Below, piece by piece: positions 1 to 13,259 of a DNA stretch of 13,259 nucleotides. The DNA is from Thermoplasmata archaeon (GTDB lineage: Archaea > Thermoplasmatota > Thermoplasmata > Halarchaeoplasmatales > Halarchaeoplasmataceae), in NCBI GenBank assembly GCA_019594195.1, contig JAFDTP010000049.1, forward strand, positions 1-13,259, given 5' to 3'. Every line of letters begins with the position of its first letter. The first letter of the stretch is position 1. Made by a program: the position numbers and the translations under genes. The notes beneath the pieces were generated by a model. That model saw only the letters and a program-made list of their open reading frames with translations. It was not told where the DNA came from and made no database searches.

Positions 1-246
1 GATGAAACTGGAAAGAAGAAGCCGGATCCTCGACCATTTCTTTACTGTTTGGAAAAGATGGGGTTGGAACCGGGAGAGGTCGTTTTGGTGGGAGATAGCT
101 TGGATAGAGACGTAGTTCCTGGTAAAGAGATCGGGATGCTTACCGTTCATGCGAAGTACGGTGATAAAAATTACGATGAAGAACGGGATGTTGAAGCGGA
201 TCATTCTATCGAGGAAGTGGAAGAGTTGATGGATTTGTTGGGATAG
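1..246 (+). CDS. HAD-family phosphohydrolase, 3' end (5' part outside window)
   Basis: The frame is open from base 1 to the TAG at 244-246, giving the last 81 residues of a HAD-superfamily hydrolase. The fragment shows the family's motif III lysine region (GKKKPDP, fragment residues 4-10) and motif IV with the metal-binding acidic pair (GDSLDRD, residues 31-37, Asp32 and Asp37). After these comes the usual GKEIGMLTVHAKYG strand-loop. The nucleophile motif I (DxD) and the cap domain must lie upstream of the window. Known family role: phosphate-ester or phosphonate hydrolysis in the cytosol; the substrate cannot be predicted. A TTG at 49 could be read as a start, but the conserved motif III upstream of it argues against that. 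The gene converges on the minus-strand operon ending at 359. Its last 192 bp recur at 9533-9724. Confidence 0.9.
   Translation, partial: DETGKKKPDPRPFLYCLEKMGLEPGEVVLVGDSLDRDVVPGKEIGMLTVHAKYGDKNYDEERDVEADHSIEEVEELMDLLG
55..246 (+). repeat. Left copy of a 192-bp direct repeat (HAD 3' end)
   Basis: This segment matches 9533-9724 without gaps. By hand I count 17 mismatches in 192 positions (about 91% identity). The match is uneven: bases 100-188 are identical to 9578-9666 (89 bp), while 189-246 carries 13 of the mismatches. Upstream of base 55 the DNA is diverged, though the protein frame still aligns at the G-x-K-[KR]-P motif. The two copies bracket the AAA/Mre11/Rad50/regulator/helicase block in the same orientation. 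Confidence 0.9.
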
Positions 247-323
247 TTCCAATTTTCCTTGACTGAATCATAGAAATTCTCGCAAAATTTATTCTAATTT
301 AGATAAAATATTTCTAAGATTTT

Positions 324-340
324 AAGAAAAAAAGAAAAAG
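324..340 (-). terminator. T-rich tract ending the AAA/Mre11/Rad50 operon
   Basis: Read on the minus strand, this tract is almost pure T (CTTTTTCTTTTTTTCTT), starting 18 bases after the stop of the Rad50-like gene. Oligo-T tracts without a strong hairpin are the usual archaeal intrinsic termination signal. I see no comparable T run on the plus strand behind the HAD gene. Confidence 0.55.
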
Positions 341-358
341 TGTTCGCTTGATATACTC

Positions 359-2554
359 TCATAAGTTCTCTATGTTTGCCTCGGAGAAAAGGTCAGCATT
401 GTCTGGGTTACAGGTCATCATGATGACCTGCTTATCCTCTGATAGATCATCTATAAGCTCCGCAGCGTTCTCTCTCCTAGTATTGTCCAAATTCACCAGT
501 GGATCATCCATCACTAAGAATCCATCGGCCTCCTCAAGATGATATTCAGCCATAGCCAATCTGATAGAAAGAGCTGCTATATCTCCTTGGCCCTTGGAGA
601 GGTACACTCTAGGGATATCATATCCCTCAGGATGGTAAATACCTTCGATCTCCATCTCGTCCATATTTACTCCTTTGAATTCTTTTCCGTATATCCTACC
701 GAAATATTCTTCTAGACTTTCTTTGAGCTGCTCGTATATCAGTTCACCTTCTTCTAGTAATTCTTCTGTCTTTTCTTGCAAGAACCTGTAAGCTTTTCCT
801 TTCTTCAGGACTCGTTGGAATTTCCTTTTCTTTTCTTCAAGTTCTTCTTCAAGCTCCTCTGAAGGTATATCTGGTGTATCGATATCCTTCAACTCGTTCA
901 AAATAGATGTCTTTTCTTTAATGAGCTCGTCTTTTCTGACATCTCTAAGTTTTTCATATTCCTCTCTGAACTCGGCCGATGCATCAGAGAACTTTTCTGG
1001 AACATCCTCTAACTGATCTAATTCTTCATTGAGTTTATCTATCCCTTTTTTGACATCACTCTTTTTATCACCTATCTTGGAGAGAGATGAAACCTCGTGT
1101 TTTTCTTTTATCTCCTGTATAGTATCTTCAGCATCTTCGATGTCTTTCTCAGCATAAGATATATCATTTTTCAATTCTGTTATTTCGCCTTTTGTTGCTT
1201 CCAATTTATCTTTTGGATCTTCTCTCCCTAATGGTAACTCTATGTCATGTTCCTCTGCTGTTTGCTCCTTTTCCTCTCTAAGAGATTCTATCTTACCTAA
1301 ACGTTCTTCGAGCTTTCCCTCTCCTGAGAGTATCTCTATATCGAGAGGATCGCTCACTATTTTCAATCGCCCGTCGGCTTCGATTTGTTTTTTATCACCC
1401 TTTTTTAACGAGTGTTCATCGATTTCAGATCCCATGTCTTTCTGGATCTTGATATAGATATCTTCTTTCGCTTCAAGACTACCACCCAATTTTCCTGCCT
1501 GGAGTTTTTCCTTCTCTTGCTCTATCTCTTCTGATAAATCTTGGATTTCGACAAGCCTTTCTAGCTCTTCCTTTGTCTCCTTTTTTTCCTCAAGATTGTT
1601 TTGGAGTATATTCGACTCACCTTTCTTGGTAGATATAGTTTCCTTAGCTTCTTCCCAAGCATCAAAATCTTTCTCTAACTGTTCGTGTTTTTCTTCTTTG
1701 TTTTTCAATTTCAACTCGAGCCTTTCTCTTTCACTTGAATCTTCATATGCCTTCTTGTGAGTCTTTAAGAACTCTTCGACCTTCTCAAGCTCTTCACTAC
1801 ATCTGTTCAACTCTTTGTTTTTCTCCCCGATCTTCTCTTCTTTAGATCTTACTTTCTCTAGCTTATCTTCCTTGTTTTTCTTTTCCTTGTAGGTCTCGTA
1901 GATCTTACCTATGTTCTGTTTGAATAATCCACCACTACTTTTTCTTTCAGGTCTTCCTCTTTCGAAATCCCATCTTTTTGCATAGTTACTGTAATATTCT
2001 TCAACCCTTTTTAAAAATTCTTGAGGAGAGACGCCTTCTGTTTTCAATTTTTTCCTCAATTTCTCATCGAGTTCTGAATACACTTCGTCATCTTCTATCG
2101 AGAAAACCTCCTGGATCGATGCTTGATAGGCCATCAGAACGTTCTTGAAAGTACCTTTATTGCTAGGTAAGATCTGTTTCAACTTCTCGTTCACCTCTTT
2201 ATCACCTTCCAGTCTGCTGATATCGTCTCCCTCGATGATCGCCTCACTCTTGTCCTTGTCTTTACACCATTTTTTTGTGAGGTTGTATTCTTTCCCTTCA
2301 TGTTCGAATCCGATAGTGACTTCGATCACGTTACCGCCATCCAACGGGTATCTCTTTTTGATGTATTTTTTGTATTCTGGGTTATTTCTCCGAACTTTAG
2401 AATCGATGAAAAGGGCACTATACAGAGCGTCGAAGACGGTCGTTTTACCAGCACCTGTTTCTCCTAGAAGCACGTTCGTTTTACCCTTTTCGAACTCGAA
2501 TGATGCATCCGATAGATTGCCGAATGGATGTGTATTTATCCTTTTGATTATCAT
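359..2554 (-). CDS. Rad50/SbcC/YhaN-like ABC ATPase without zinc hook
   Basis: 731 residues with SMC/Rad50 architecture. The N-terminal ATPase lobe has a Walker A (GETGAGKT, 31-38). A long Glu/Lys-rich coiled coil follows (roughly 190-630). The C-terminal lobe has an ABC signature (LSKGQGD, 652-658), a Walker B (FLVMDDP, 679-685) and a D-loop (LVNLD, 686-690). The partner is the nuclease encoded just upstream (4-bp ATGA overlap; GAGGAG 8 bases before the ATG), so it probably forms an ATP-gated end-processing complex with it. Oddities: only three cysteines and no CxxC, so the zinc hook that dimerises classical Rad50 is missing. The Walker B glutamate is Asp684, and the switch histidine region reads MTCNP. 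DDP plus TCxP is, as I recall, typical of the YhaN branch rather than classical Rad50. It is also shorter than typical Rad50/SbcC. The family call is firm; the exact branch and function are inferred. Confidence 0.93.
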   Translation of the reverse strand: MIIKRINTHPFGNLSDASFEFEKGKTNVLLGETGAGKTTVFDALYSALFIDSKVRRNNPEYKKYIKKRYPLDGGNVIEVTIGFEHEGKEYNLTKKWCKDKDKSEAIIEGDDISRLEGDKEVNEKLKQILPSNKGTFKNVLMAYQASIQEVFSIEDDEVYSELDEKLRKKLKTEGVSPQEFLKRVEEYYSNYAKRWDFERGRPERKSSGGLFKQNIGKIYETYKEKKNKEDKLEKVRSKEEKIGEKNKELNRCSEELEKVEEFLKTHKKAYEDSSERERLELKLKNKEEKHEQLEKDFDAWEEAKETISTKKGESNILQNNLEEKKETKEELERLVEIQDLSEEIEQEKEKLQAGKLGGSLEAKEDIYIKIQKDMGSEIDEHSLKKGDKKQIEADGRLKIVSDPLDIEILSGEGKLEERLGKIESLREEKEQTAEEHDIELPLGREDPKDKLEATKGEITELKNDISYAEKDIEDAEDTIQEIKEKHEVSSLSKIGDKKSDVKKGIDKLNEELDQLEDVPEKFSDASAEFREEYEKLRDVRKDELIKEKTSILNELKDIDTPDIPSEELEEELEEKKRKFQRVLKKGKAYRFLQEKTEELLEEGELIYEQLKESLEEYFGRIYGKEFKGVNMDEMEIEGIYHPEGYDIPRVYLSKGQGDIAALSIRLAMAEYHLEEADGFLVMDDPLVNLDNTRRENAAELIDDLSEDKQVIMMTCNPDNADLFSEANIENL

Positions 2555-3708
2555 CCTTTCATCTCCTCTATCATCTCATAAGCTAGTTCCGCAGCTGTAT
2601 CACTCAACTCGCTGTCTTCTTCTAAGACACCATCCAAAAGTTGATACGAGAATGACCCTTCAGAGAACTCGTCCTTCACAACATCTAGATCTATCCTGGG
2701 GTTGAATTCCTCGTCATCTAGCTCTATGTACTTGAAACCTTTTGGATCACTTCTTAGGCCGTTGATGTACTTTTGTGCCTCTTCAAAATCATCCTTGTCC
2801 ATCTTACCTTTGACGGTCAGTCTCAACAGCTGTTTTTCGTGTTCATCGTCTTCGATGAAATCTTTCAACTGTTCGAGATCCTCCATGTCCTCAACTGTTA
2901 TATCATCATGCTTGAACTCGTGTCTACCGACATCGATACTTTTTGCAGATATCTTCTTATCATCTTTTATCTCGATGATCCATGCTTTGCCCTTTTCACT
3001 CTCTTCAGCTGTCCTTTTGAATCCATCCTCCTCTGGAGTACCGGGATAGAAATGATCCTGAGCTCTCGTTTCCTTTCTAGGTATCATCACGTGTACATGC
3101 CCCAAAAGCCATAAGTCTAGATCAAAATCTTTTAGTTCATCCTTGGTCATCGGGAAGTAAACACCCTTTTCATCATAAGAGCATCCTTCTAGGTGACCGT
3201 GAGCGACACCTATGTGGAATATATCGTCTTCCTTTTCCGACTCTTCTATCCATCCTAAGTTGTTCTCCTGAGATATCTTCTGGTCACATGGGGCTGGATA
3301 TATATATGTTTCATTTCCCTCTTCAAGACGATCTGATATATCGTACTTATCTTTGTTTTTTAGCACTATCACACCGTCTATATCTTCTAGCCATCTCCAA
3401 TGATCTTTGTTCCTCTCAGAATGGTAATCGTGGTTACCAGGAAGGATCAATATGGCTCTTCCTTCAAACCTTTCTAAAGAAGGTCTGATCTTTTCCACGT
3501 CCTTTCTTTTCCTGAAGTTGGGATCGTCGAAAAGGTCACCAGATACAACGAAGAGTTCACAGTCGTTTTCGTTTGCCTTCGATATTAATCGATCGAGGAC
3601 TTTATACCTCTCTTCAACTAGATCTTTTTTTACCTCAGGGTATTCGTTATATCTCCCGTAGTTCTTTCCTATATGCAAGTCCGCAGTATGCAAAATCTTT
3701 ATGGCCAT
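2551..3708 (-). CDS. Mre11/SbcD/YhaO-like metallophosphoesterase nuclease
   Basis: 385 residues. The N-terminal calcineurin-type phosphoesterase domain has all the metal-binding motifs in order: DLHIG (10-14), GDLFDDP (57-63), GNHDY (91-95), AHGH (169-172) and GHVHV (203-207), followed by the Mre11-like YPGTPEEDGF (221-230). Known role: Mn-dependent exo/endonuclease working with a Rad50-type ATPase on DNA ends. The acidic C-terminal part (about 240-385) would carry the capping and ATPase-binding regions. The ATG at 3708 is preceded by GGAAGGTG with about 8 bases of spacing. It lies 16 bases downstream of the 34-residue ORF and overlaps the Rad50-like gene by 4 bp, so the two proteins should be made together. 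Catalytic residues appear intact. Confidence 0.94.
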   Translation of the reverse strand: MAIKILHTADLHIGKNYGRYNEYPEVKKDLVEERYKVLDRLISKANENDCELFVVSGDLFDDPNFRKRKDVEKIRPSLERFEGRAILILPGNHDYHSERNKDHWRWLEDIDGVIVLKNKDKYDISDRLEEGNETYIYPAPCDQKISQENNLGWIEESEKEDDIFHIGVAHGHLEGCSYDEKGVYFPMTKDELKDFDLDLWLLGHVHVMIPRKETRAQDHFYPGTPEEDGFKRTAEESEKGKAWIIEIKDDKKISAKSIDVGRHEFKHDDITVEDMEDLEQLKDFIEDDEHEKQLLRLTVKGKMDKDDFEEAQKYINGLRSDPKGFKYIELDDEEFNPRIDLDVVKDEFSEGSFSYQLLDGVLEEDSELSDTAAELAYEMIEEMKG

Positions 3709-3724
3709 CTTTAATACACCTTCC

Positions 3725-3829
3725 TCATATTTTCATCCTCATCTCTAGCTGTTTTAGAGTTTCATCCTTTGGCAGGTCTTCGACCAATCCTTTTATATTC
3801 TTTAGCGCTCTCTCTATTTTTTTATCCAT
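3725..3829 (-). CDS. Small ORF, 34 residues, coupled between AAA+ and Mre11-like genes
   Basis: The ATG at 3829 lies inside the last codons of the AAA+ gene (8-bp overlap, ATGGATAA). The frame runs to a TGA at 3725-3727, and the Mre11-like ATG follows 16 bases later. The product begins MDKKIERALKNIKGLVEDLP and ends in a Lys/Glu/Met-rich stretch. It has no cysteine, no signal peptide and no membrane segment. The pattern of hydrophobic residues suggests one amphipathic helix, with a break at the Pro-Lys-Asp. A GAGGT ribosome-binding site 10 bases before the ATG and the termination-reinitiation geometry support real translation. I do not recognise a family. It could be a small adaptor of the AAA+ or nuclease proteins, or merely a coupling peptide that keeps ribosomes moving to the next gene. 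Confidence 0.6.
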   Translation of the reverse strand: MDKKIERALKNIKGLVEDLPKDETLKQLEMRMKI

Positions 3830-5378
3830 ATATATCGAAACCTCTTAAATTATCGTGCCTTTCCTCATCAGAGTGAAGAGAGTAGTCCATAGCATCTTTT
3901 TTCTCCGACTCGATCCCACTGACAAAATCCTCTTGACACACCGTCTCTCTACCTTCACTCAAGGCAGTCCTTGCAGCATAAAGGACCGCATTCTTTATAT
4001 TTCCTCCGCTGATTTTAAATCTTTTAGCTAGTTCTTCTACGTTGACATCATCAGCAAGTGGTAAGGAATCAGGGATATGGTTCTCCCATATCTTCTGTCT
4101 TGCCTCCTTGTCTGGTCTTGGAAACTTGACTTTAAGATCGAACCTCCTTGAAAGGGCTTTATCTAATGCTATGGAATAGTTCGTTGTGAAAACTAGGATT
4201 CCCTTTGCGGTCTCCATCTCTCTGAGGAAAATATCCACTATCCTATCTTCAGTAGCGCTCGCAGCATCAGTGCTCCCGTGACGTTTGCTAAGGATACCCT
4301 CGGCTTCGTCTACTATTATGATTGGTTCTTCATCGTTCAAAGCCTCGAACATCTTTTTTACATTCTTCTCTGTTTTCCCGTACCAGCTACTCATCAGATT
4401 TTCACAAGGGAGATGATACACATCATTACCCATATATTTTCCAATAGCTTTGGCCATCATCGTTTTGCCAGTTCCTGAAGGCCCGCTGAATAGAAGAGAA
4501 ACTCCAGATCTATCACCTGTTATCTCTTTCATGCCCCACTCCTCATAAAACTTGTCCCTGTGCTGAAGTTGATCTATAGTTGATAAGATTTTATTTTTTA
4601 GTCCAGTTGGTAAGACTACATCTCGCGGATCGATGACTTCATCGAGTTCCTCTAAGATATCACCATCTTTTTCATCCTTATCGCGATCACTAAAGATAGG
4701 ATGAGATTCTACTGTAGAATCGAAGTAGTTCCTTATCTTCTTCGCTCTCTCTACTTCATCTAATATCCTTGATACAGAATACTCACTGATCCCGTACCTC
4801 TTCCCTTCTATCTCTTCATCAGGTGGATAATCATTCACGGGGGCGATGATCTTTTTATCTTTTATCAATTTAGAAGTGTCGATCAGGTATTTCCTACCTT
4901 CTTCTAAAGGCGTATCATGGACGATCTTTAGACATGCTAGTATCTTCTCGCCTTGGAGAGTTGGATCCGATACATTTATGCCTAGACCGTTTTTAGCGAG
5001 AAGAAGATTGGTTATTGTTATCTCTTCTTCCGAGAGCATATGATCTTCTCGGAACTCAGTTATAGGATATTTTTCGCCGATCTTTTCCTCCGTTGATATC
5101 CTTTTCTTCTCTATCTTTTTGAATTTTTGATTGAATTTAGTTTCGGCTCTTTTAAAACGATATCTAGCCTTCTCTTTGAATGCTCGAGAAACTTCATCGA
5201 TCAGATCGAGATTTGAACCGATCATAACGCCAAGATATTCCGCGTAGTTTTCGAACCTTTCTCCGACCTCATCAACATCTCTTAAAGGCAGCAGGAGATT
5301 CTGCTTGTTCCTATCCGCCGAACTATCGCTTCTTCTTTCTCTTCTCATAGTTTTCACTAAGATCTTTATTCTCAACAC
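3822..5378 (-). CDS. AAA+ ATPase (Cdc48/SpoVK-like module) with unassigned N-terminal domain
   Basis: 518 residues from a GTG at 5378; an ATG at 5348 (residue 11) is an equally good or better start. Residues 1-230 are a charged helical region I do not recognise. The AAA+ module spans about 255-490: Walker A GPSGTGKT (299-306), a pore-loop-like SSWYGK (330-335), Walker B IIIVDEAEG (353-361), sensor 1 TTN (398-400), arginine-finger SRRFD (410-414) and sensor 2 SGGNIKNAV (457-465). All key residues are present, so it should form an active hexamer that remodels or unfolds a protein or nucleoprotein partner. It is the first gene of the operon leading into the Mre11- and Rad50-like genes. That is the position HerA holds in typical archaeal herA-mre11-rad50-nurA clusters, but this is not HerA-like: it lacks the HerA domain layout. 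The substrate is unknown. Confidence 0.9.
   Translation of the reverse strand: MLRIKILVKTMRRERRSDSSADRNKQNLLLPLRDVDEVGERFENYAEYLGVMIGSNLDLIDEVSRAFKEKARYRFKRAETKFNQKFKKIEKKRISTEEKIGEKYPITEFREDHMLSEEEITITNLLLAKNGLGINVSDPTLQGEKILACLKIVHDTPLEEGRKYLIDTSKLIKDKKIIAPVNDYPPDEEIEGKRYGISEYSVSRILDEVERAKKIRNYFDSTVESHPIFSDRDKDEKDGDILEELDEVIDPRDVVLPTGLKNKILSTIDQLQHRDKFYEEWGMKEITGDRSGVSLLFSGPSGTGKTMMAKAIGKYMGNDVYHLPCENLMSSWYGKTEKNVKKMFEALNDEEPIIIVDEAEGILSKRHGSTDAASATEDRIVDIFLREMETAKGILVFTTNYSIALDKALSRRFDLKVKFPRPDKEARQKIWENHIPDSLPLADDVNVEELAKRFKISGGNIKNAVLYAARTALSEGRETVCQEDFVSGIESEKKDAMDYSLHSDEERHDNLRGFDIYG
3840..3844 (-). promoter_or_regulatory. Ribosome-binding site of the 34-residue ORF
   Basis: The minus strand reads GAGGT here, within the coding end of the AAA+ gene and 10 bases before the ATG at 3829. 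It matches the archaeal anti-Shine-Dalgarno and is the main reason to treat the small ORF as translated. Confidence 0.55.
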
Positions 5379-5389
5379 TTAGTAAAGTT

Positions 5390-5425
5390 GTTTCGTTGCG
5401 ACGGTTTTGCTCGTTGCAACAAAAC
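5390..5425. promoter_or_regulatory. Candidate divergent operator: two TCGTTGCRAC boxes
   Basis: The 92-base gap between the divergent AAA+ and winged-helix genes holds TCGTTGCGAC (5393-5402) and TCGTTGCAAC (5411-5420), 18 bases apart. The second contains the perfect palindrome GTTGCAAC. The whole stretch is also an imperfect inverted repeat: GTTTCGTTGCGAC (5390-5402) against the complement of 5413-5425, with two mismatches. A partial third box, TCGTTGTA, lies at 5461-5468, directly before the plus-strand ATG. The placement suits a regulator controlling both directions, most simply the adjacent winged-helix protein; that pairing is inferred. Confidence 0.5.
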
Positions 5426-5439
5426 TAAAATAAGACAAG

Positions 5440-5448
5440 AAATAAATA
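5440..5448 (+). promoter_or_regulatory. TATA-like box of the winged-helix gene
   Basis: AAATAAATA is centred about 27 bases before the ATG at 5471. No ribosome-binding site precedes that ATG. The spacing fits an archaeal TATA box serving a leaderless or near-leaderless transcript. Confidence 0.45.
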
Positions 5449-5470
5449 GTGTTCCTTTTATCGTTGTATT

Positions 5471-6490
5471 ATGTCATCAGAACGATCTAGGGGGCTATCA
5501 AGAGGGTCCATATACAGGTCAGCCATCCTTGAGGTCCTATATTTAGTAGATGAGGTAGGTGAGGAAGGAGTAATTAATACAGACAAGGATGATAAACCTT
5601 ACGACGGCGCTTTTTGGAAGAGCGCCATCAAAAGACAGATCGATGTACTTCATCCAGACATCAGTGAGGAAGATGATGGCATCCCCCGATCGACCGTCGC
5701 TAGGCGCATCAACTCCTTAAAGGAAGAAGGATCGGTCGAGCAAGTGGACATGCCGGAAAATTTCAATAGATACACGAACGAGGGATACAGAATCACTGAA
5801 AAGGGCAAAAGAGAGTATCGAGAGGTGGTCGGAGATTTTTATGCTACTCTAGCGGCTAGCTGTTTCTACGATTTCGTGCTTGAGAGGTACCGAGGAGATT
5901 GTGAGTCTTGTGAGGAAGATGGAGAAAACTGTGAGAACACCGCTATCGATGTCTTGACAAGCGGACAGGTACATCCATCCGTGAACATGGATAAAAAAAC
6001 GATGTACAACATCGCAGATCAGGCCGAAAGTCCAAAAGAGGTCAAGGAGATGGCTGGTTTGATCTTGAGTTGGGCCTATCTTACCGATGCTGTTGAAAGA
6101 AGGAATTTACCGAACACTGGGAAGGAGACAAGTGAGGCTTTGAAGCAACTTTCTATAAAAAATCCAGCAGTCGCAGAGATAGCGTTATCCACTTATAGAT
6201 TGCCATTATCTGACATCTTCGATATATTCGAAGCATGGGATGAATATCCAGGTTTTCAGATGCCCGCCGATCAATACATGGTGACCAAATCTGTTCTCGA
6301 ACTTCAAAGAGAAGATGAAGGAGTTTTATATGAGGAGATAAAACAATGGTTGGAAGAAAAGGAAATAGAATACGATCCTAGGAACACGATTCGGCAGTGT
6401 AAGGAAAATGGCTTTCTCAGAGTAGGAGAAGACGAAGAAGGGATTAAGAGATACAAAGTGACGGAAAAGATCGCCGAGTTCGTGAGATAA
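5471..6490 (+). CDS. Double winged-helix DNA-binding regulator with Cys cluster
   Basis: 339 residues, acidic. An N-terminal winged helix spans about 13-120; its recognition-helix segment IPRSTVARRINSLKEEGSVE (71-90) is followed by the wing strand YRITEKGKREYREV. A second winged-helix-like segment is at the C-terminus (about 285-338: YEEIKQWLEE, RNTIRQCKENGFLRV, RYKVTEKIAEF). Between them are Cys131, Cys144, Cys147 and Cys154 (C-x12-C-x2-C-x6-C), a spacing able to hold Fe-S or zinc, and a helical middle region of unknown function. It is transcribed divergently from the AAA/Mre11/Rad50 operon across the TCGTTGCRAC boxes, so it probably senses a signal and regulates that operon and itself. DNA binding by the N-terminal domain is well supported; metal binding and the target are inferred. 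I cannot assign a named family. Confidence 0.8.
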   Translation: MSSERSRGLSRGSIYRSAILEVLYLVDEVGEEGVINTDKDDKPYDGAFWKSAIKRQIDVLHPDISEEDDGIPRSTVARRINSLKEEGSVEQVDMPENFNRYTNEGYRITEKGKREYREVVGDFYATLAASCFYDFVLERYRGDCESCEEDGENCENTAIDVLTSGQVHPSVNMDKKTMYNIADQAESPKEVKEMAGLILSWAYLTDAVERRNLPNTGKETSEALKQLSIKNPAVAEIALSTYRLPLSDIFDIFEAWDEYPGFQMPADQYMVTKSVLELQREDEGVLYEEIKQWLEEKEIEYDPRNTIRQCKENGFLRVGEDEEGIKRYKVTEKIAEFVR

Positions 6491-6565
6491 ATCGATCCAA
6501 AAATAGATAAGCAAAAAAACTTTCTTTGTATCTAGTAAAAAGAAATAATCATTATTGAACAAACA

Positions 6566-6584
6566 CGTCATCTATCTGATGACG
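6566..6584. repeat. Perfect inverted repeat, 7-bp arms
   Basis: CGTCATC (6566-6572) and GATGACG (6578-6584) flank the 5-base loop TATCT. It lies 75 bases behind the winged-helix gene and 127 bases before the helicase ATG. No T run follows on either strand, so it is not a standard terminator; an operator or RNA hairpin is possible. Apart from this, GATCT-AAA-AGATC at about 6626-6638, and the helicase promoter, the 221 bases 6491-6711 contain nothing I recognise and no ORF. Confidence 0.5.
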
Positions 6585-6665
6585 GATAAAAGGTTGGATT
6601 AATAATTGATCAGGCATGTATGTCGATCTAAAAGATCCTCTTCTAGATTTGATATAACATATTTA

Positions 6666-6696
6666 TTATGTAAACATAAAAAATATATATTTATTA
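6666..6696 (+). promoter_or_regulatory. Helicase gene promoter: palindrome plus TATA box
   Basis: TTATGT-AA-ACATAA (6666-6679, perfect 6-bp arms) sits immediately upstream of an AT box, ATATATATTTATTA (about 6683-6696), which lies about 20-28 bases before the helicase ATG. A weak ribosome-binding site AAGGA (6702-6706) is 5 bases before the ATG. The palindrome occupies the BRE/upstream position, where an archaeal repressor or activator would act. It does not resemble the TCGTTGCRAC boxes. Confidence 0.45.
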
Positions 6697-6711
6697 GGCA
6701 TAAGGAAAATC

Positions 6712-9078
6712 ATGAGTCTTGGGTTCGATCCTGATGATGCAACGAGTCATCTTTCTTATGAGGAGATGTTCAAAGAAGAAAGATTGAAAAAAGATTACAT
6801 ACGTAAGAAAGATTGGCCTGCTCAGGTAGATCGTGCTGCTTTAGATATACTCTATGGAATAGCTGTAGGGAAAAGCAAAGATCCTAATGACCCAGGAGGG
6901 ATGATCAGCAAATTCGATTTTGGAGAAGCTACTGGTGAATTCTATGTAAATGGTCTTGAAGAGTTAGCCTCTAACAGATATCATCTGAAAAGAAATTTAG
7001 AAATATATGCGAGCGATGAGATAGGAGACTTAGCACTCAAATTGAACGAACTTAGAGATGAATTAGATTCTTTAGAAGATGATTTGGATCTTAGTCCGGT
7101 TCTTAAAGCTGTTGTCGAAAAGATCGCTAGTGAAAAAATTGATGATCCACCGACATTGGAATTAGACGAACCAGAATCATCTACGGACTTGATCCTTCAA
7201 ATCCTTTCAAATCCTGGAGGACAAGAATACATCGATGTCCTTATCAATGGATTGAAAGACATACCAAAAGATGAAAGATTGCTAAGTTTGATGGATAGAC
7301 CTCAGATGACAACACCGCTCTGGGATCATCAACAAGATGCTTTGAAAGCTTGGACTCAAGAAGGATATAGAGGATATGTAGATATGGCTACAGCTACAGG
7401 TAAAACCGTTTTAGGATTAGCAGCGATCGCTTTATTCTTTGGTAGACTACATCAACAGGATGAAAAAGAGATAATCGGTGAAAAAGATGGATGGGGTCGC
7501 AAAAGTGATGGAAGAGTGTTGGTCATCGCTGGTACTGACCTTTTACTAGAACAATGGAGGGAAGAATTCGATAAACATCTCAGTATACCACTAGATAGGA
7601 CGAAAAGGATGTACTCGGAGAGAAATATCTCACTTCAATGGGGAACGATAGAATTCCGAACCGCTCAGAAACTTACACAGATGAGCTCTTTTAAAAATTA
7701 TGATCTGATCATCCTAGACGAAGCTCATCGTTATAGAAAAGGTTCAACAAAAGGCATGGCATGGAAAACATTGTTCAAAAAGTTAGCATCTGATTGTGAA
7801 GCTATATTAGCTATGTCAGGCTCGATAGACAAAAAGTGGATAGGAGACGATAGTGCTAAAGAAGCTTTAGAGGAAAGATTGAACTTGTTAAGGAGCTTCA
7901 CTGTCAAGGAAGCAAGAGAAAAGGGGATAATTGCAGACTTCGATTGGAACGTGCATTATGCACCAGCAGATAAAGAAGATCAAAATGCTCTTAGTAAGTC
8001 TACGGAACCATTGTATGAGATATACGATGAAAAGGAACATCTATTCGATCTAAAAAAGATGAATATTGATGTATCTTCAGATACACATCCTACAACTTTC
8101 CGAACAGTTTCAGGATTGAGAGGATTTATCCAGTCAAAAGAAGGGTCTAAAATCCGAGATAGCTCAGAGGAATTCGATATGATCTCTAATTCTGCACAAA
8201 CTAGATGGGCTGATTGGGATAATCTAAACCCTTCTGATGAAGTAGTTCTAGATATAGTAAAAAAACATGCACCTGAAGAGAAATGTGTCGTACTAGTGAA
8301 GAGCTATCCCCAAGCTAAAACCATAGGAGAAAAATTGAAAGGCATATTTACTCAGGAAGTCGTACAGATACCAAAAAGCGACCCAGAGGATCAATTAAAA
8401 AAGATCGAGAAGTTCAAAGATAAAGATGATTCAGCCAAGATAATAATAGGACCTGGATCAGTCCTTGGGAGAGGGATAGATATGCCTGATGCAGAGGTCG
8501 CGATCAATTTTGCTAAAGGAGGGATGAATGTCTCGTTGATCCAGCGTATAGGAAGAGTATTGAGGAATCCCAAAGGCGAAAAAGAGGCTACTTTTTATCA
8601 TATCGTTGCTTTACCTGATGAATATAACGCCCTTTTGATAGGTGATGACGGACGGAGGATCTTGAAACAAGGTGCTGAATTCAGGGCATTAGGTGATCGG
8701 TTAGACGAATCCCCTGTGTTTGAATGTAAGGATACAAAGAAGGTGTTAGTAGAACTTGAACGAGCTGGATTTGAATCTTACCAAAATGACGAAAGGAGCT
8801 TAAAAGAAATAATAAAAGATAAAAAGGTCCGAAATGAATTGAGACAACTGTCTGAAAAAAAGATCGAAGAGAACGTCGAGTCATCAAAGATTTTGAAATA
8901 TTGGGGTCCTGATAAAACCAAGAAAAAAATAGAAAAAGAAAGTAAAGTTGAATCTGGTGAAAGACTTAAAGAAAGAAAAGAAAAAACCCGGGACGGGATC
9001 AAAGAAAAATCTGAAAAAGGGACTTTATCAAAGATCAAGAAAAAATTGAAAGGTATATTCAGACGTGATCGAGAGTAG
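6712..9078 (+). CDS. SF2 DEAH-box helicase, XPB/restriction-helicase-like
   Basis: 788 residues. Residues 1-195 are an acidic, helical N-terminal region without a recognised motif. The RecA1 domain follows: a Q-motif-like region WDHQQDAL (204-211), Walker A ATATGKT (226-232), motif Ib area VIAGTDLLLEQW (271-282), DEAH (336-339) and motif III MSGS (368-371). An insert of about 100 residues precedes RecA2, which has motif V GRGIDMPDAEVAINF (586-600) and motif VI QRIGRVLRNP (611-620). The last 90 residues are a Lys/Glu-rich tail ending in a basic cluster. No nuclease motif is visible, so it should be an ATP-driven DNA or RNA translocase acting alone or with the neighbouring nuclease. The ATG is the first start after a TAA at 6655-6657. 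It has its own promoter, so coupling to the preceding regulator is by location only. Confidence 0.92.
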   Translation: MSLGFDPDDATSHLSYEEMFKEERLKKDYIRKKDWPAQVDRAALDILYGIAVGKSKDPNDPGGMISKFDFGEATGEFYVNGLEELASNRYHLKRNLEIYASDEIGDLALKLNELRDELDSLEDDLDLSPVLKAVVEKIASEKIDDPPTLELDEPESSTDLILQILSNPGGQEYIDVLINGLKDIPKDERLLSLMDRPQMTTPLWDHQQDALKAWTQEGYRGYVDMATATGKTVLGLAAIALFFGRLHQQDEKEIIGEKDGWGRKSDGRVLVIAGTDLLLEQWREEFDKHLSIPLDRTKRMYSERNISLQWGTIEFRTAQKLTQMSSFKNYDLIILDEAHRYRKGSTKGMAWKTLFKKLASDCEAILAMSGSIDKKWIGDDSAKEALEERLNLLRSFTVKEAREKGIIADFDWNVHYAPADKEDQNALSKSTEPLYEIYDEKEHLFDLKKMNIDVSSDTHPTTFRTVSGLRGFIQSKEGSKIRDSSEEFDMISNSAQTRWADWDNLNPSDEVVLDIVKKHAPEEKCVVLVKSYPQAKTIGEKLKGIFTQEVVQIPKSDPEDQLKKIEKFKDKDDSAKIIIGPGSVLGRGIDMPDAEVAINFAKGGMNVSLIQRIGRVLRNPKGEKEATFYHIVALPDEYNALLIGDDGRRILKQGAEFRALGDRLDESPVFECKDTKKVLVELERAGFESYQNDERSLKEIIKDKKVRNELRQLSEKKIEENVESSKILKYWGPDKTKKKIEKESKVESGERLKERKEKTRDGIKEKSEKGTLSKIKKKLKGIFRRDRE

Positions 9079-9334
9079 AAGTGAGAGAAATAAATTTGTA
9101 TAAGAACAGATGGAAACAGCACCTCACCAAATAATACTACTTCTAGCATTGAAAAAAACTATCTACAGATGATAAGATAGATTTGAAAAGCATTACTCTC
9201 CGATCAGAGGAACTATTATGCACCTTAGAAGAGATTTGGGAAAATTGACTTGGAGATAATAGGGATTTCAATATTAAAAACCTCTATTCTATTTGGGAAA
9301 CATCAAGGAGTTTTGAAAATACGAAGTAAAATAG
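9079..9334. other. Gene-free, apparently decayed stretch after the helicase
   Basis: 256 bases without a plausible gene. A 20-residue frame from the ATG at 9110 (METAPHQIILLLALKKTIYR) stops at 9172. The same frame resumes after a second stop with about 28 codons before two more stops. This stop-riddled, codon-like texture suggests an eroded gene, perhaps a small helix-turn-helix protein, but I cannot identify it. I see no terminator, RNA gene or repeat here. Confidence 0.4.
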
Positions 9335-9724
9335 GTATCCGAAGAGTCAAAAGGACCTGAGAATGTTCCCACAGATGTTGAAGTATTTTATATAGATGAT
9401 GATGGATTAATAAAACTAATAAACAATGAAGTATCTAGAAACAAACTAATAGAAGCACTAGTGGAGAGCGGAAGAGTATTAAAAAATGGAGCTAAACGAC
9501 CATGTTTTGAGTATAGAGACAAAATCAAAGAAAAGATGGGATTGGAACCGGGAGAGGTCGTTTTGGTAGTAGATAGTTTGGATAGAGACGTAGTTCCTGG
9601 TAAAGAGATCGGGATGCTTACCGTTCATGCGAAGTACGGTGATAAAAATTACGATGAAGAACGGGAGGTCGAAGCTGATCATTCTCTCAAGTATGTGGAA
9701 GAGTTGATGGATGTTTTAGGGTGA
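9335..9724 (+). pseudogene. Chimeric HAD-hydrolase 3' fragment
   Basis: The frame is open from just after a TAG (9332-9334) to the TGA at 9722-9724, but the first usable start is a GTG at 9461, so no complete HAD enzyme can be made. Codons 9335-9476 give an unrecognised sequence (it contains VEVFYIDDDGLIKL). From about 9488 it follows the C-terminal end of the HAD protein at 1-246: G-A-K-R-P aligns with motif III, and motif IV is VDSLDRD, with the usual Gly replaced by Val. Motif I and the cap are absent. It is either the relic left by duplication or insertion into the HAD gene, or a paralogue fused to foreign sequence. If translated from 9461 it would give 87 residues. Confidence 0.65.
9533..9724 (+). 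repeat. Right copy of the 192-bp direct repeat (HAD 3' end)
   Basis: Partner of 55-246, same orientation, start-to-start distance 9478 bp. Bases 9578-9666 are identical to 100-188. The remaining 103 bases carry all 17 mismatches. Some loose similarity continues past the stop codons (AGTTCCAATTTTC against AGTTCAATCTTAT). Confidence 0.9.
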
Positions 9725-9752
9725 ATAGGAGTTCAATCTTATGAAATGAGGG

Positions 9753-9774
9753 ATGTCGAAAGACGTTTTTTTTT
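9753..9774 (+). terminator. Hairpin plus T9 terminator after the HAD fragment
   Basis: ATGTC-GAAA-GACGT forms a 5-bp stem (one G-T pair) closed by a GAAA tetraloop. It runs straight into nine T residues (9766-9774), 28 bases after the TGA of the HAD fragment. It is a good plus-strand intrinsic terminator, and its survival suggests the HAD fragment was once, or still is, transcribed. Confidence 0.6.
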
Positions 9775-9784
9775 CGCGAACTGC

Positions 9785-9850
9785 GTTAGCGAGGAATGCC
9801 TTCTTAGCATACTACCAAACGTCTATCGCGTGCAAAAGGTGGTAGCTAAC
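9785..9850 (+). other. Foldable segment, possible structured RNA
   Basis: GTTAGC (9785-9790) pairs with GCTAAC (9845-9850). Directly stacked on it, TACCA (9813-9817) pairs with TGGTA (9840-9844). The 22-base bulge can form GAGG-AATG-CCTT (9791-9802). The result resembles a three-way junction. No promoter is obvious: the T9 terminator ends 10 bases upstream. This could be a small RNA, a recombination-site relic or chance. It does not fit tRNA or another RNA family I know. Confidence 0.3.
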
Positions 9851-9889
9851 TGCCATAGTTGATATATGATCTAACTGCTATAGTTGATA
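9846..9889 (+). repeat. Tandem repeat CTAACTGCYATAGTTGATA, two copies plus a degenerate third
   Basis: Copies at 9846-9864 and 9871-9889 differ at one of 19 bases and are spaced 25 bp start to start. A degenerate copy lies at 9972-9990 (14 of 19). Each has the short inverted arms AACT...AGTT. Iteron-like or operator-like; too few copies for a CRISPR array. Confidence 0.6.
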
Positions 9890-9898
9890 ATTTTTCCA

Positions 9899-9935
9899 GG
9901 TAGAACTACCGTCGTTCATATATGAAAGATGGCAG
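9899..9935. repeat. Nested palindromes
   Basis: GGTAG-AA-CTACC (9899-9910) overlaps a longer palindrome centred at 9920/9921. TTCATATATGAA (9915-9926) is a perfect 12-mer. Its arms extend through CCGTC (9909-9913) and GATGG (9928-9932, one G-T pair), with single mismatches, out to 9906 and 9935. In RNA the two hairpins would be mutually exclusive because they share CTACC. The remaining DNA from 9936 to about 10140 has no gene and nothing else I recognise. Confidence 0.6.
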
Positions 9936-10143
9936 ACAGAAGTGGATTTTTTTATTTTCTGGGCATGAGGGTGAACTGCTGTGCTTGATAATTATGGGAT
10001 TGGGTAGTGGGGTTAAAGGGGTGAAGTGAGCTGGTTTTGGTGGAAATCATCGTCTGTTAACTTGATTTGGACCTTCAGTTTATTCCTTTCTCTATTCTCG
10101 TTCGTTATTTTAAGATTTTTAGCGGAAGATTATTATGGTTCGA

Positions 10144-10152
10144 TTTTAATAA
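10144..10152 (+). promoter_or_regulatory. TATA-like box of the TPR-HEPN gene
   Basis: TTTTAATAA is centred about 23 bases before the ATG at 10171. There is no convincing ribosome-binding site next to the ATG, which suggests a leaderless transcript. Confidence 0.4.
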
Positions 10153-10170
10153 GGATTTGAGTCTGAGAAT

Positions 10171-13095
10171 ATGACTACGCTTAGGGATAAAATCCCTGAT
10201 AAAAAAATTGATAACTTACTCACCGATTATTGGATAAAGTATTATACTAAAATTGTTAAACAAATAAATGAAGGTGACGAAAGTATAAGAGATCAGAAAG
10301 TAAAGATAATAGGATTAGATAATATTTTTTTAAAGAGAATGTTCAAGGATCCTAGATTTCAGAGTTTTGTTCTCGAAAAGGTAGTAAACAATGATTTCGT
10401 TATAGAAAACATAAGAGATTACATTAGAAATGTGAGAGGTGAGATGGATAAGGATACTAAAAAAATGATCTTCAATACTGGGGACAAAGCTATTTCCAAA
10501 GATACTTCTAAAAAGTCAGAAACTGAAGTTAAAACAAGTCCTCCCAGTTCTTTTGATTCTATCGTAGAAATTTATCGAAAAAAATCGCTTAAAACAGAAA
10601 ACATACGTAAATATCTTTTTGATGAATTACGATCGATAAAACCGGGGGAAGAAAAATACTCTGAAAAGGCGATACAATATCTTCTCGAAAGTCTTGACAA
10701 ACCACATGATATAACTATTTTATTCTCACCAATTTTCCCTTATTATTACAAAATAGAAAATAACCCATCTTATTATAGGACATTAGAGAAAAAATACATA
10801 ATAAAAAATATCAAATTCGCATCAAAATTTGAAGAAGACGAATCTTTTGATAACAGGATGATAAATCAACTATTTTATGGTTTAAGAGTTAAAACGAGCG
10901 TGTTAGATGTTTTAACCCTTACTCTTACTGAATCTTTAATTAGGAAAATATTTGATGAATCAATCAAATCAAATGATTTTTCAGAGTTAACTAGATATTC
11001 AAATTTCATAACGGATATTATTACAATATCTTGTATCACCTGGTTCCGTAATAATTCCTTGGAAGAAAGAATCAAGATTTTAAATGATGAATATCCCAAG
11101 AATTTTGATATGGAAAGGATCAGTCTCAGTCATGTATCCCTAGACACATTACGTTCGTTAGTCCCGAGGTATATTGAAAGTGGAGAATATAATAATTCTG
11201 AAAAAGTACTGAAATATTTAATAGGGAATGATAGTTCCGATCTTCATATACATTATAAGGACCTTGACAACTTAGCTACTCTGTATAGAAAAAAAAGAAA
11301 TTTTGATAAAGCAATTACATATTACAAAAAAGCATTAGAGACTTCGAAAAGTCTTACCTGTGAGAACCGGGAATATAAAAGAGTAATAGAGTTAAAAAAT
11401 TTATTTGAATGTCATCTCAGATCGGGAAGCAAAGAAAAGGCTGATGAGTATTTAGAACAGATCGAAAAGGATATAGAAAGTTTAGATGTGAAATGCAAAG
11501 CTAAATTTTTATTTAATCTTGCAAAGTCCTACAAGCGGGCTCGAAATTTTAAAAAGGAATTCGAAACATTAAATCAGTTATCAGATATCGAGTCAGTTAA
11601 GGAAATAATAGGATGGGAGAACTATATATATATGAATAATAGATTTATATTACTAAATAAAAACTATAATAAATTTGATAATTTGGTCCAAAAGGTACTG
11701 CAAGAGGAATTCAAAAAAGTAATATCAAATGCCTATAGGAAATTAGAATTATTTCAATACGACGAAGCAATTCATTGGTTAGAAGTAGCAAATACCCTGA
11801 TTCCTAACTCCGAAGAGTACTATCTGATTATGTCAAAGATTTACTTATGGAAAAATGATTATGAAAAGGCAACTAAACATTTAAAGATGATGAAGGAACA
11901 TTCCCCGGAAGTCAGAGGTCCTAATCTGTATCTAGGTTTAATTGATCTTAAAAATGGAAACAGGGATATGGGAATTCAAAAAATCACAGCTTTTTTTAAT
12001 CAACTTTTCGATGAAGCTGGATATAATGAGTTATTAAATTATTTGAAAGAATTACTGAGAGAATTAGCATCTAAGGATTTTGATGTATTGGATATAATCT
12101 TTGAAATTGGAGAAAATGTAACATTTTCTAAAACTGACTTTTTTTACAATACCGGAAAAGTGCTTTCATCGAATAAAATAGGATTTATGGAAGAGGCAAA
12201 AGTCATACTTGAAAAGGCTTTAGATCAATGTTCAGAGGATTTTAAGAGAACCCAGATATTGATGGAGGTCAAGAAATGTTATTATCATCAGGGAAATTAT
12301 AATAAAGCGTTGAACATATTTGATGATTTAATCGAAAAACACCCCGAATCCGATGATTTATTTATTAGAGGTGCCAAAATTTTAAGATGTTTAGGACAAA
12401 AGAAAAAAGCTTTAGAATATCTAAACAAAGTTAGTGATATCGATGATGACAATTTTAGACATACAAAATATTTAATAGAAAATGATGAAGCCATAATATC
12501 ACTAGATTTATTAGATAATAAAAAATCACGCAAGTTCTTATATTCCGCTGAGAAACAGTTCTTCGATAATATAGTCAGTAAAAATAATGACATAGATGTT
12601 TCAAATCTTAAAGTTGAATATTCTAAAGGGATCGAAGATTTGTTCAACGAAAACATCGCTAAAAAAGCTTGGGAATTTGCAGTTGAAGATAATAACTTAT
12701 CCTCAAAGACTAGATTTATACCTGATGAATTTTGGAGGGGGGATAAAGACAATGGAAAAGAACCTCTTCGCGGTTATCTTAAAGGTTTGAGATATGAAAA
12801 ATCTGTCTCGGTAGGTAAATGGATTGAAATAATGGATGATACAAACAAAAAGAATCTAAATAATCCTCTTAATAAATCCTTCTTATCTTATGTAAAGAAT
12901 CATTTTACCCACAAAGAAAGAAAGCAGTTAAAAATGTATTTTGATTTCCTTTGTGAGGAAAGAGGTCCTTCAGCTCACACTGGGGAGGCAGGTATTGATG
13001 ACCTAGAAGAAATTAGAGAGGAGTTAATTGAAAATATTAACAGCATTGTTTATATTTATTATAAATCGAAGAAAAATCTAAATAATTTAGTTTAG
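10171..13095 (+). CDS. TPR-repeat protein with C-terminal HEPN-like domain
   Basis: 974 residues; the ATG is the first start after two in-frame TAA codons (10147-10152). Residues 1-330 are helical and unrecognised. TPR-like helix pairs follow: about 364-400 (LATLYRKKRNFDKAITYYKK), 440-470, 520-610 (YLIMSKIYLWKNDYEKATKH) and 690-760 (KKCYYHQGNYNKALNIFDDL). The C-terminal 180 residues look like an all-helical HEPN domain, with a YSKGIEDLFNENI helix at about 817 and the motif R931-GPSA-H936 (R-x4-H) followed by an acidic helix. HEPN proteins with intact Rx4-6H are typically metal-independent RNases in toxin, abortive-infection and CRISPR systems; TPR arrays usually sense or scaffold. The polar residue often following the Arg is Gly here, so catalytic competence is uncertain. 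The gene is strongly AT-rich compared with its neighbours, suggesting transfer. TPR call firm; HEPN call probable; function inferred. Confidence 0.85.
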   Translation: MTTLRDKIPDKKIDNLLTDYWIKYYTKIVKQINEGDESIRDQKVKIIGLDNIFLKRMFKDPRFQSFVLEKVVNNDFVIENIRDYIRNVRGEMDKDTKKMIFNTGDKAISKDTSKKSETEVKTSPPSSFDSIVEIYRKKSLKTENIRKYLFDELRSIKPGEEKYSEKAIQYLLESLDKPHDITILFSPIFPYYYKIENNPSYYRTLEKKYIIKNIKFASKFEEDESFDNRMINQLFYGLRVKTSVLDVLTLTLTESLIRKIFDESIKSNDFSELTRYSNFITDIITISCITWFRNNSLEERIKILNDEYPKNFDMERISLSHVSLDTLRSLVPRYIESGEYNNSEKVLKYLIGNDSSDLHIHYKDLDNLATLYRKKRNFDKAITYYKKALETSKSLTCENREYKRVIELKNLFECHLRSGSKEKADEYLEQIEKDIESLDVKCKAKFLFNLAKSYKRARNFKKEFETLNQLSDIESVKEIIGWENYIYMNNRFILLNKNYNKFDNLVQKVLQEEFKKVISNAYRKLELFQYDEAIHWLEVANTLIPNSEEYYLIMSKIYLWKNDYEKATKHLKMMKEHSPEVRGPNLYLGLIDLKNGNRDMGIQKITAFFNQLFDEAGYNELLNYLKELLRELASKDFDVLDIIFEIGENVTFSKTDFFYNTGKVLSSNKIGFMEEAKVILEKALDQCSEDFKRTQILMEVKKCYYHQGNYNKALNIFDDLIEKHPESDDLFIRGAKILRCLGQKKKALEYLNKVSDIDDDNFRHTKYLIENDEAIISLDLLDNKKSRKFLYSAEKQFFDNIVSKNNDIDVSNLKVEYSKGIEDLFNENIAKKAWEFAVEDNNLSSKTRFIPDEFWRGDKDNGKEPLRGYLKGLRYEKSVSVGKWIEIMDDTNKKNLNNPLNKSFLSYVKNHFTHKERKQLKMYFDFLCEERGPSAHTGEAGIDDLEEIREELIENINSIVYIYYKSKKNLNNLV

Positions 13096-13097
13096 CT

Positions 13098-13259
13098 TCA
13101 TCCATCTTCGATCACCTTCAACATAAGCCTCCCATTTTCCGTGATCTCATTCGAATTTTCCCTCCTAGATCTTCCCTCTTCTATGCTTATAAGATCCCAT
13201 TCTTCTAGATTACGAAGCATACTCGAAAGATTCCCTGGGGTAAGTTTTTCGGTTTTACC
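13098..13259 (-). CDS. Winged-helix transcriptional regulator, C-terminal part (runs off window)
   Basis: On the minus strand the frame is open from the window edge to the TGA at 13098-13100, giving the last 53 residues. The pattern is a recognition helix (LTPGNLSSMLRNLEEWDLIS), a short basic wing (EEGRSRREN) and a strand-helix end (EITENGRLMLKVIEDG), as in MarR/ArsR-like archaeal regulators. The start and N-terminal helices lie outside the window. It converges on the TPR-HEPN gene with 2 bp between stop codons. It may regulate that neighbour or belong to an unrelated unit. Confidence 0.7.
   Translation of the reverse strand, partial: GKTEKLTPGNLSSMLRNLEEWDLISIEEGRSRRENSNEITENGRLMLKVIEDG

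Follow-up and report, generated by a model that had tools for sequence, protein, structure and literature searches.

Viperin is an immune protein common to eukaryotes and prokaryotes. The type of viperin system in which the enzyme is accompanied by a tetratricopeptide-repeat (TPR) protein is the one system type that PMC12988326, with reference to Bernheim et al. 2021, reports as exclusive to Archaea, and protection of E. coli against T7 is reported for some Asgard viperins (PMC11291487). In the literature that we searched, most of it outside the subscription journals, we found no stated function for the large TPR partner of archaeal viperin, and nothing that terms the viperin-linked TPR protein a HEPN ribonuclease (RNase). 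The combination of TPRs with HEPN has been described before: the HEPN families tabulated by Anantharaman et al. 2013 (PMC3710099, Table 1) include LA2681, in which HEPN is fused to TPR; validated HEPN defence systems are reported in PMC13092281, whose accessible portion does not mention viperin. Here we analyzed a stretch of 13,259 nucleotides from a Thermoplasmata archaeon (contig JAFDTP010000049.1, positions 1 to 13,259), referred to below as the window, which carries on the forward strand, at 10171..13095, a gene for a TPR protein of 974 amino acids with a HEPN-like C-terminus. We regard it as somewhat probable that the product of this gene serves an archaeal viperin system as its large TPR partner, whose C-terminal HEPN domain would act as an RNase effector beside chain-terminating nucleotides.

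An earlier note on this DNA had placed a TPR protein with a C-terminal R-x4-H at 10171-13095; the exact open reading frame (ORF), running from ATG to TAG, the Pfam TPRs and the motif R931-G-P-S-A-H936 were all recovered. In the profile search, which the note had named as a check, the PADLOC model PDLC02907 ('TPR') matched residues 16-960 over profile positions 12-863 of 864, with an E of 1.4e-32. This match is not noise from the repeats, because residues 1-325 (10171..11145) alone match profile positions 12-277 with an E of 9.4e-10, and the last 181 residues, the HEPN-like C-terminal domain (12550..13092), alone match with an E of 1.4e-16. The TPR region covers approximately residues 338-765 (11182..12465; approximate boundaries, set in this analysis from Pfam TPR models), and its best stretches are approximately residues 365-430 and 701-761 (Pfam; TPR_19 E 6.4e-14). 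By profile, the TPR protein is a full-length and very divergent member of the PDLC02907 family, in which it forms a long, unplaced branch (end branch of 1.95, best identity of 21%). The long N-terminus pointed out in the earlier note is a real, conserved and family-specific region, in which five residues (D60, W291, F292, L304 and N305) are kept in all 21 rows of an alignment of the 20 full-length relatives described below and the window protein. The composition of the gene also differs from that of its surroundings: it has a guanine-plus-cytosine content (GC) of 0.29, or 0.26 at third codon positions (GC3), and a product without net charge, whereas the neighbouring genes have a GC of 0.38-0.44 and products with an excess of acidic residues. 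An AT-rich gene with an uncharged product among acidic, higher-GC neighbours therefore suggests a history different from theirs.

Word-based protein searches with the whole protein or with its last 210 residues returned no match except the protein itself, and an alignment query (58 proteins) returned only the protein itself and proteins with generic TPR domains. One of these generic matches, inspected by eye, has TPRs followed by another domain without the HEPN-like end, and was set aside. No match was obtained when genome contigs were scanned for peptides of the TPR protein, when viral contigs were scanned for peptides, or when viral contigs were scanned for a DNA pattern taken from the window end. 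Compared with phages the TPR protein gave no match, and compared with plasmids a single TPR-level match; its sole match in PHROGs is weak (7.8e-6), falls in the TPR region and concerns a family of unknown function. The relatives came from a phylum that was reached via a haloarchaeal genome found through the helicase of the window. PDLC02907 was used to search 392 genomes of this phylum and matched in 48 of them (E <= 1e-3), with many short matches within the TPR part; it also matched in 20 of 185 genomes of one order, a set that overlaps the 392. For the analysis of neighbourhoods, 26 places were taken, 20 from the 392-genome search and 6 from the 185-genome search, and the remaining matches, mostly short and in the TPR region, were left out of the counts. 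These places correspond to 20 full-length genes and to six with the C-terminal domain only or a partial match (L043, L049, L050, L053, L054 and L080).

In each of the 20 full-length relatives mapped, both a gene for a prokaryotic viperin (pVip) and a Csa3-like gene, encoding a regulator with CARF and winged helix-turn-helix (wHTH) parts, are located within approximately 3 kb of the TPR gene. A VakA gene, whose name we take to mean viperin-associated kinase, encodes a nucleotide kinase in 10 of these loci, in one of them as a piece of 101 amino acids. The genes of the loci were identified by PADLOC for one example each (pVip, E 8.1e-77; Csa3, E 6.2e-102; VakA, E 1.2e-39; Radical_SAM in Pfam) and otherwise by profiles built from these loci. 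The association with viperin was also obtained independently of our own profiles: the PADLOC pVip model matched 28 of the 392 genomes at E <= 1e-30, and pVip adjoins the TPR gene in all 15 genomes in which the 392-genome searches found a full-length TPR gene. The CX3CX2C motif is kept in all 26 strong pVip genes. From their numbering and their neighbourhood, we read PDLC02907 (TPR), PDLC02903/02904 (pVip), PDLC02909 (Csa3) and PDLC02911 (VakA) as one system. Five of the six places without a full-length gene have no viperin match; in L080, a weak match (E 3e-22) lies at a distance of approximately 5 kb. The earlier note had suggested such a survey of genomic neighbourhoods and had expected a defence factor formed by a single protein; the defence role is supported, and the single-protein arrangement is not supported by these 20 loci. 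The TPR protein probably does not act alone and forms an RNase arm of viperin immunity.

Six loci (L045, L047, L048, L076, L077 and L079) contain two viperin genes together with the kinase and the TPR-HEPN gene; the kinase lies between the two viperins in five of them and outside the pair in L077, and both copies keep CX3CX2C.

In 19 of the 20 loci, the TPR gene comes after a viperin gene and shares its orientation, whereas in L036 the two are convergent. Such an order would also suit a toxin-antitoxin-like arrangement, in which a TPR-HEPN toxin is restrained by viperin, by the kinase or by a nucleotidase, and is freed when a virus disturbs the product of that gene. The presence of the nucleotide kinase in half of the loci agrees with this proposal, as does a conserved gene of approximately 175 codons that adjoins the TPR gene in three loci (L044:11423-11959, L045:11120-11647 and L036:112-645), whose L044 and L045 copies, the two that were scanned, match a phage 5'-3' deoxyribonucleotidase family. 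However, clustering of the neighbouring genes revealed no gene common to all loci besides viperin and Csa3, and the other half of the loci lack the kinase; we consider this arrangement very unlikely.

In the window itself, the end of a second component of these loci can be recognized. On the reverse strand at 13098..13259 lies a gene for a Csa3-like CARF-wHTH regulator, which is convergent with the TPR gene and is cut by the window end, so that its last 53 codons remain. Among 5,027 PADLOC models (E <= 10), the sole match of this fragment is PDLC02909 'Csa3' (E 7.7e-6, profile positions 189-233 of 237), a model with which three full-length regulators from viperin loci, when scanned, gave 1e-65 or better; Pfam gave only weak winged-helix matches (0.004 and 0.012). 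A wHTH-only profile built from 13 viperin-linked regulators gave the fragment 30.7 bits. As a control, the wHTH profile reported 22 of 6,387 ORFs at E <= 1000, all with at least 67.7 bits and all of them Csa3 genes of the analyzed loci (20 loci, two of them present twice). With the full-length regulator profile the fragment obtained 24.8 bits, and the best two non-Csa3 control ORFs obtained 14.6 and 12.5 bits. The 'small regulator' that the earlier note had seen beside the TPR gene is therefore indeed a regulator, but its small size is an effect of the window edge. Because the relatives lie in a viperin and Csa3 neighbourhood and the window contains a regulator end that matches Csa3, this DNA most likely includes one flank of a viperin locus of archaeal type.

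Two observations weigh against this assignment of the locus. The cut regulator shows its wHTH end only, the CARF part lying outside the window, and no viperin was found in the 13.3 kb of the window, in which the best tblastn value was E 0.063 and no ORF matched the viperin profile. A profile search of the ORFs likewise found no kinase in the window. The contig with the identical protein has a length of 15,586 bases, so that 2,327 bases lie outside the window, with room for the remainder of the regulator and for a viperin gene if they are on that side; the viperin gene of this locus is predicted to lie beyond position 13259. If the gene had left the viperin system and its product worked by itself as an abortive-infection RNase, this would account for the lack of viperin in the 10 kb upstream and for the 446 bases that separate the TPR gene from the next upstream ORF of at least 80 amino acids. 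Such a departure appears distinctly unlikely to us, considering that all 20 full-length relatives mapped are linked to viperin and that the cut gene adjacent to the TPR gene matches the viperin-type Csa3 regulator.

One basis for assigning the C-terminal domain to HEPN is the putative catalytic Rx4H motif R931-G-P-S-A-H936 (12961..12978; codons 12961-12963 for R931 and 12976-12978 for H936). In HEPN domains, Rx4-6H has been predicted to form the RNase site (Anantharaman et al. 2013, PMC3710099). The earlier note had made its own reading depend on the conservation of R931 and H936, and both are invariant in all 21 full-length rows, as are D809 and N957 outside the motif. A second alignment comprises 21 C-terminal domains, taken from 15 full-length relatives, from the window protein and from five proteins that lack the remainder of the family sequence; in it, no columns except R and H are invariant. 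This is more than chance would give, since the two residues are kept in 21/21 rows and in 21/21 C-terminal domains. Additionally, the position of E822, upstream of the motif, carries E in 20 of the 21 full-length rows and D in the remaining one.

The same C-terminal domain, with its R-x4-H, was also observed in L049, L050, L053 and L054, with no viperin nearby, and its partner domains differ: they are YaaA-like, with or without HEAT repeats, in L049 and L053, and an AAA_12 helicase in L054.

Profile comparisons point to the same assignment. When all 21 C-terminal domains were scanned in alignment mode, they matched 15 Pfam families at E <= 1, among which four are HEPN families: HEPN_Apea (three members), HEPN_MAE_28990 (two), HEPN_RiboL-PSP (two) and HEPN_Swt1 (one). 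Single Pfam scans of 10 of the 21 domains gave HEPN matches in three (L037, L038 and L042), all of them linked to viperin and all over the motif region, and the best values on viperin-linked relatives were 7.9e-6 for HEPN_MAE_28990, 2.6e-4 for HEPN_RiboL-PSP and 0.0013 for HEPN_Apea. In an hhalign comparison with 16 ApeA-type HEPN sequences, the R-N-x3-H motifs were aligned in register (score 25.2, E 0.003), whereas the controls reached at most 16.7 for 60 column shuffles and 15.1 for three unrelated profiles.

It is important to mention the results that speak against a HEPN domain. The window protein matches no Pfam HEPN model, seven of the ten relatives' domains scanned singly match none, and the HEPN matches of the other three are all below the Pfam cut-offs (the closest with 26.6 against 26.8 bits). 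The hhalign probability is 10% over 19 columns, a reversed profile reaches a score of 19.0, and the comparison with a thin ApeA alignment of three sequences was negative (probability 0.1%). A polar residue (N, D or H) after the R is typical of HEPN, although not strict, and a second conserved acidic residue typically occurs as Ex3[KR] (PMC3710099). The window protein has G at the former position, where 20 of the 21 full-length rows have N, and E822 stands outside the Ex3[KR] context, with no K or R at +4 in the window protein; the L049 and L050 domains also have G after the R. A single-sequence AlphaFold2 model of the C-terminus is mostly helical, with a mean predicted local distance difference test (pLDDT) of 41.5, too low to be used. 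A sequence search of the PDB with the C-terminal profile gave one match (E 5.7), to a designed repeat protein. Searches for PF18737 found no match in 60 genomes nor in the control genomes, and hence are uninformative.

An unrelated helical domain, in which the R-x4-H merely resembles the HEPN motif, would be in agreement with the weak profile support, the missing fold and the G after R in the window protein. We nevertheless judge such a coincidence improbable, since four HEPN families are found among the 15 matched, over the motif region, and the motifs are in register with those of ApeA. The C-terminal domain is predicted, with good confidence, to be a HEPN domain. The TPR array followed by a HEPN-like domain that the earlier note had proposed is thus present, whereas the RNase activity that it had attributed to the protein remains a prediction.

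A HEPN-like fold could also serve without catalysis: the TPR protein might be a scaffold or chaperone that docks viperin, the kinase or a viral polymerase, its C-terminal domain only binding RNA or dimerizing. TPRs are established binding modules, and viperin loci without the TPR gene exist; viperin evidently does not need it everywhere, because only 15 of the 28 pVip genomes have a full-length TPR gene. On the other hand, only R and H are common to the whole set of 21 C-terminal domains, some of which are fused to unrelated proteins, and therefore catalysis fits better than binding, which makes a purely non-catalytic role an unlikely one in our opinion.

We therefore return to a catalytic TPR partner of viperin, for which the following course of events can be proposed. 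Infection would raise a nucleotide signal, for which cyclic oligoadenylate is a plausible candidate by analogy with CRISPR Csa3; Csa3a of Saccharolobus solfataricus recognizes cyclic tetra-adenylate (PMC8699464). The CARF-wHTH regulator would bind the signal and switch on the viperin and TPR genes, and viperin would produce 3'-deoxy-3',4'-didehydro (ddh) nucleotides that stop viral RNA synthesis. Until then, the N-terminal and TPR parts may keep the HEPN domain inactive, the trigger being a viral protein, a stalled transcription product or viperin itself. Once triggered, a HEPN dimer would cleave RNA, so that translation stops, and the RNase would thereby act jointly with the ddh-nucleotides. 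It is conceivable, though we hold it with less than even confidence, that approximately half of the sampled viperin genomes of the phylum (15 of 28) combine viperin with a TPR-gated HEPN RNase as two arms under one CARF sensor.

The sequence just upstream of the TPR gene holds no more than a C-terminal HAD fragment and short direct repeats. The fragment, an ORF of 87 amino acids at 9461-9724, resembles HAD hydrolases in their C-terminal part alone (TIGR02253, E 1.7e-9) and is probably a gene remnant. The repeats are four imperfect direct copies of AACTGCYRTAGTTGATA in non-coding DNA on the forward strand at 9848..9990 (four matches at <= 3 mismatches, with 0.10 expected from shuffles), and they may be regulator sites or an operator. 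When all the analyzed loci (912,748 bases including the window) were searched for AACTGCYRTAGTTGATA with two mismatches, only one site was found outside the window, which is listed twice owing to the overlap of L015 and L045. The region 359-9078 contains a defence-like block with genes for a Rad50-like protein, an Mre11-like protein and an AAA ATPase that resembles IetA (partial match to PDLC02196, E 1.9e-37), as well as genes for a wHTH protein and a helicase. Searched against 294 genomes, the AAA ATPase matched generic AAA proteins in every one of them. This helicase resembles PbeA and Dnd restriction helicases, and its best plasmid relative, from Haloferax lucentense (40% identity), is followed by genes for a PD-(D/E)XK nuclease and a UvrD helicase. 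The earlier note had seen a possible mobile block beside the TPR gene, but none of the seven window proteins scanned was recognized as the product of a mobile-element gene. Neither a tRNA nor an Rfam family was found in the window.

If the TPR partner is a HEPN RNase under a CARF regulator, archaeal viperin immunity would exceed poisoning by nucleotide analogues; and if both arms exist as proposed, it would be wired to cyclic-nucleotide signalling and would possess an abortive back-up arm. Several described systems resemble parts of this arrangement. The LA2681-type HEPN proteins share the order of TPRs followed by a HEPN domain with Rx4-6H, but none of the 21 C-terminal domains matches the LA2681 Pfam model at E <= 1, and for an LA2681 protein of the same phylum the profile of the C-terminal domain gave 0.1 bits and that of the full-length TPR protein 7.8 bits. 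The ApeA-type HEPN (PF18739) has its own invariant E, R and H with R-x4-H (16 sequences) and gave the best motif alignment, but the similarity is local and limited to the 19 columns of low probability mentioned above. As for CRISPR Csa3 (CARF-wHTH), the viperin-linked regulators show CARF-type and wHTH matches, but they are encoded together with viperin, and the window shows the wHTH end only; the CARF regulator MM_0565 of a methanogen was not retained as a candidate homologue, being reported in connection with a type I-B CRISPR locus. The closest system is the viperin and TPR system of PADLOC, with which the window shares a full-length family member and a Csa3-like regulator end alongside it. 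It differs from that system in that the window protein has approximately 20% identity to its relatives, and in that the regulator is convergent with the TPR gene, not placed behind the viperin gene, and no viperin lies in the window. The pairing of viperin with a TPR protein was already known, and to it the present analysis adds the reading of the C-terminus as a HEPN RNase and the rearranged gene order of the window.

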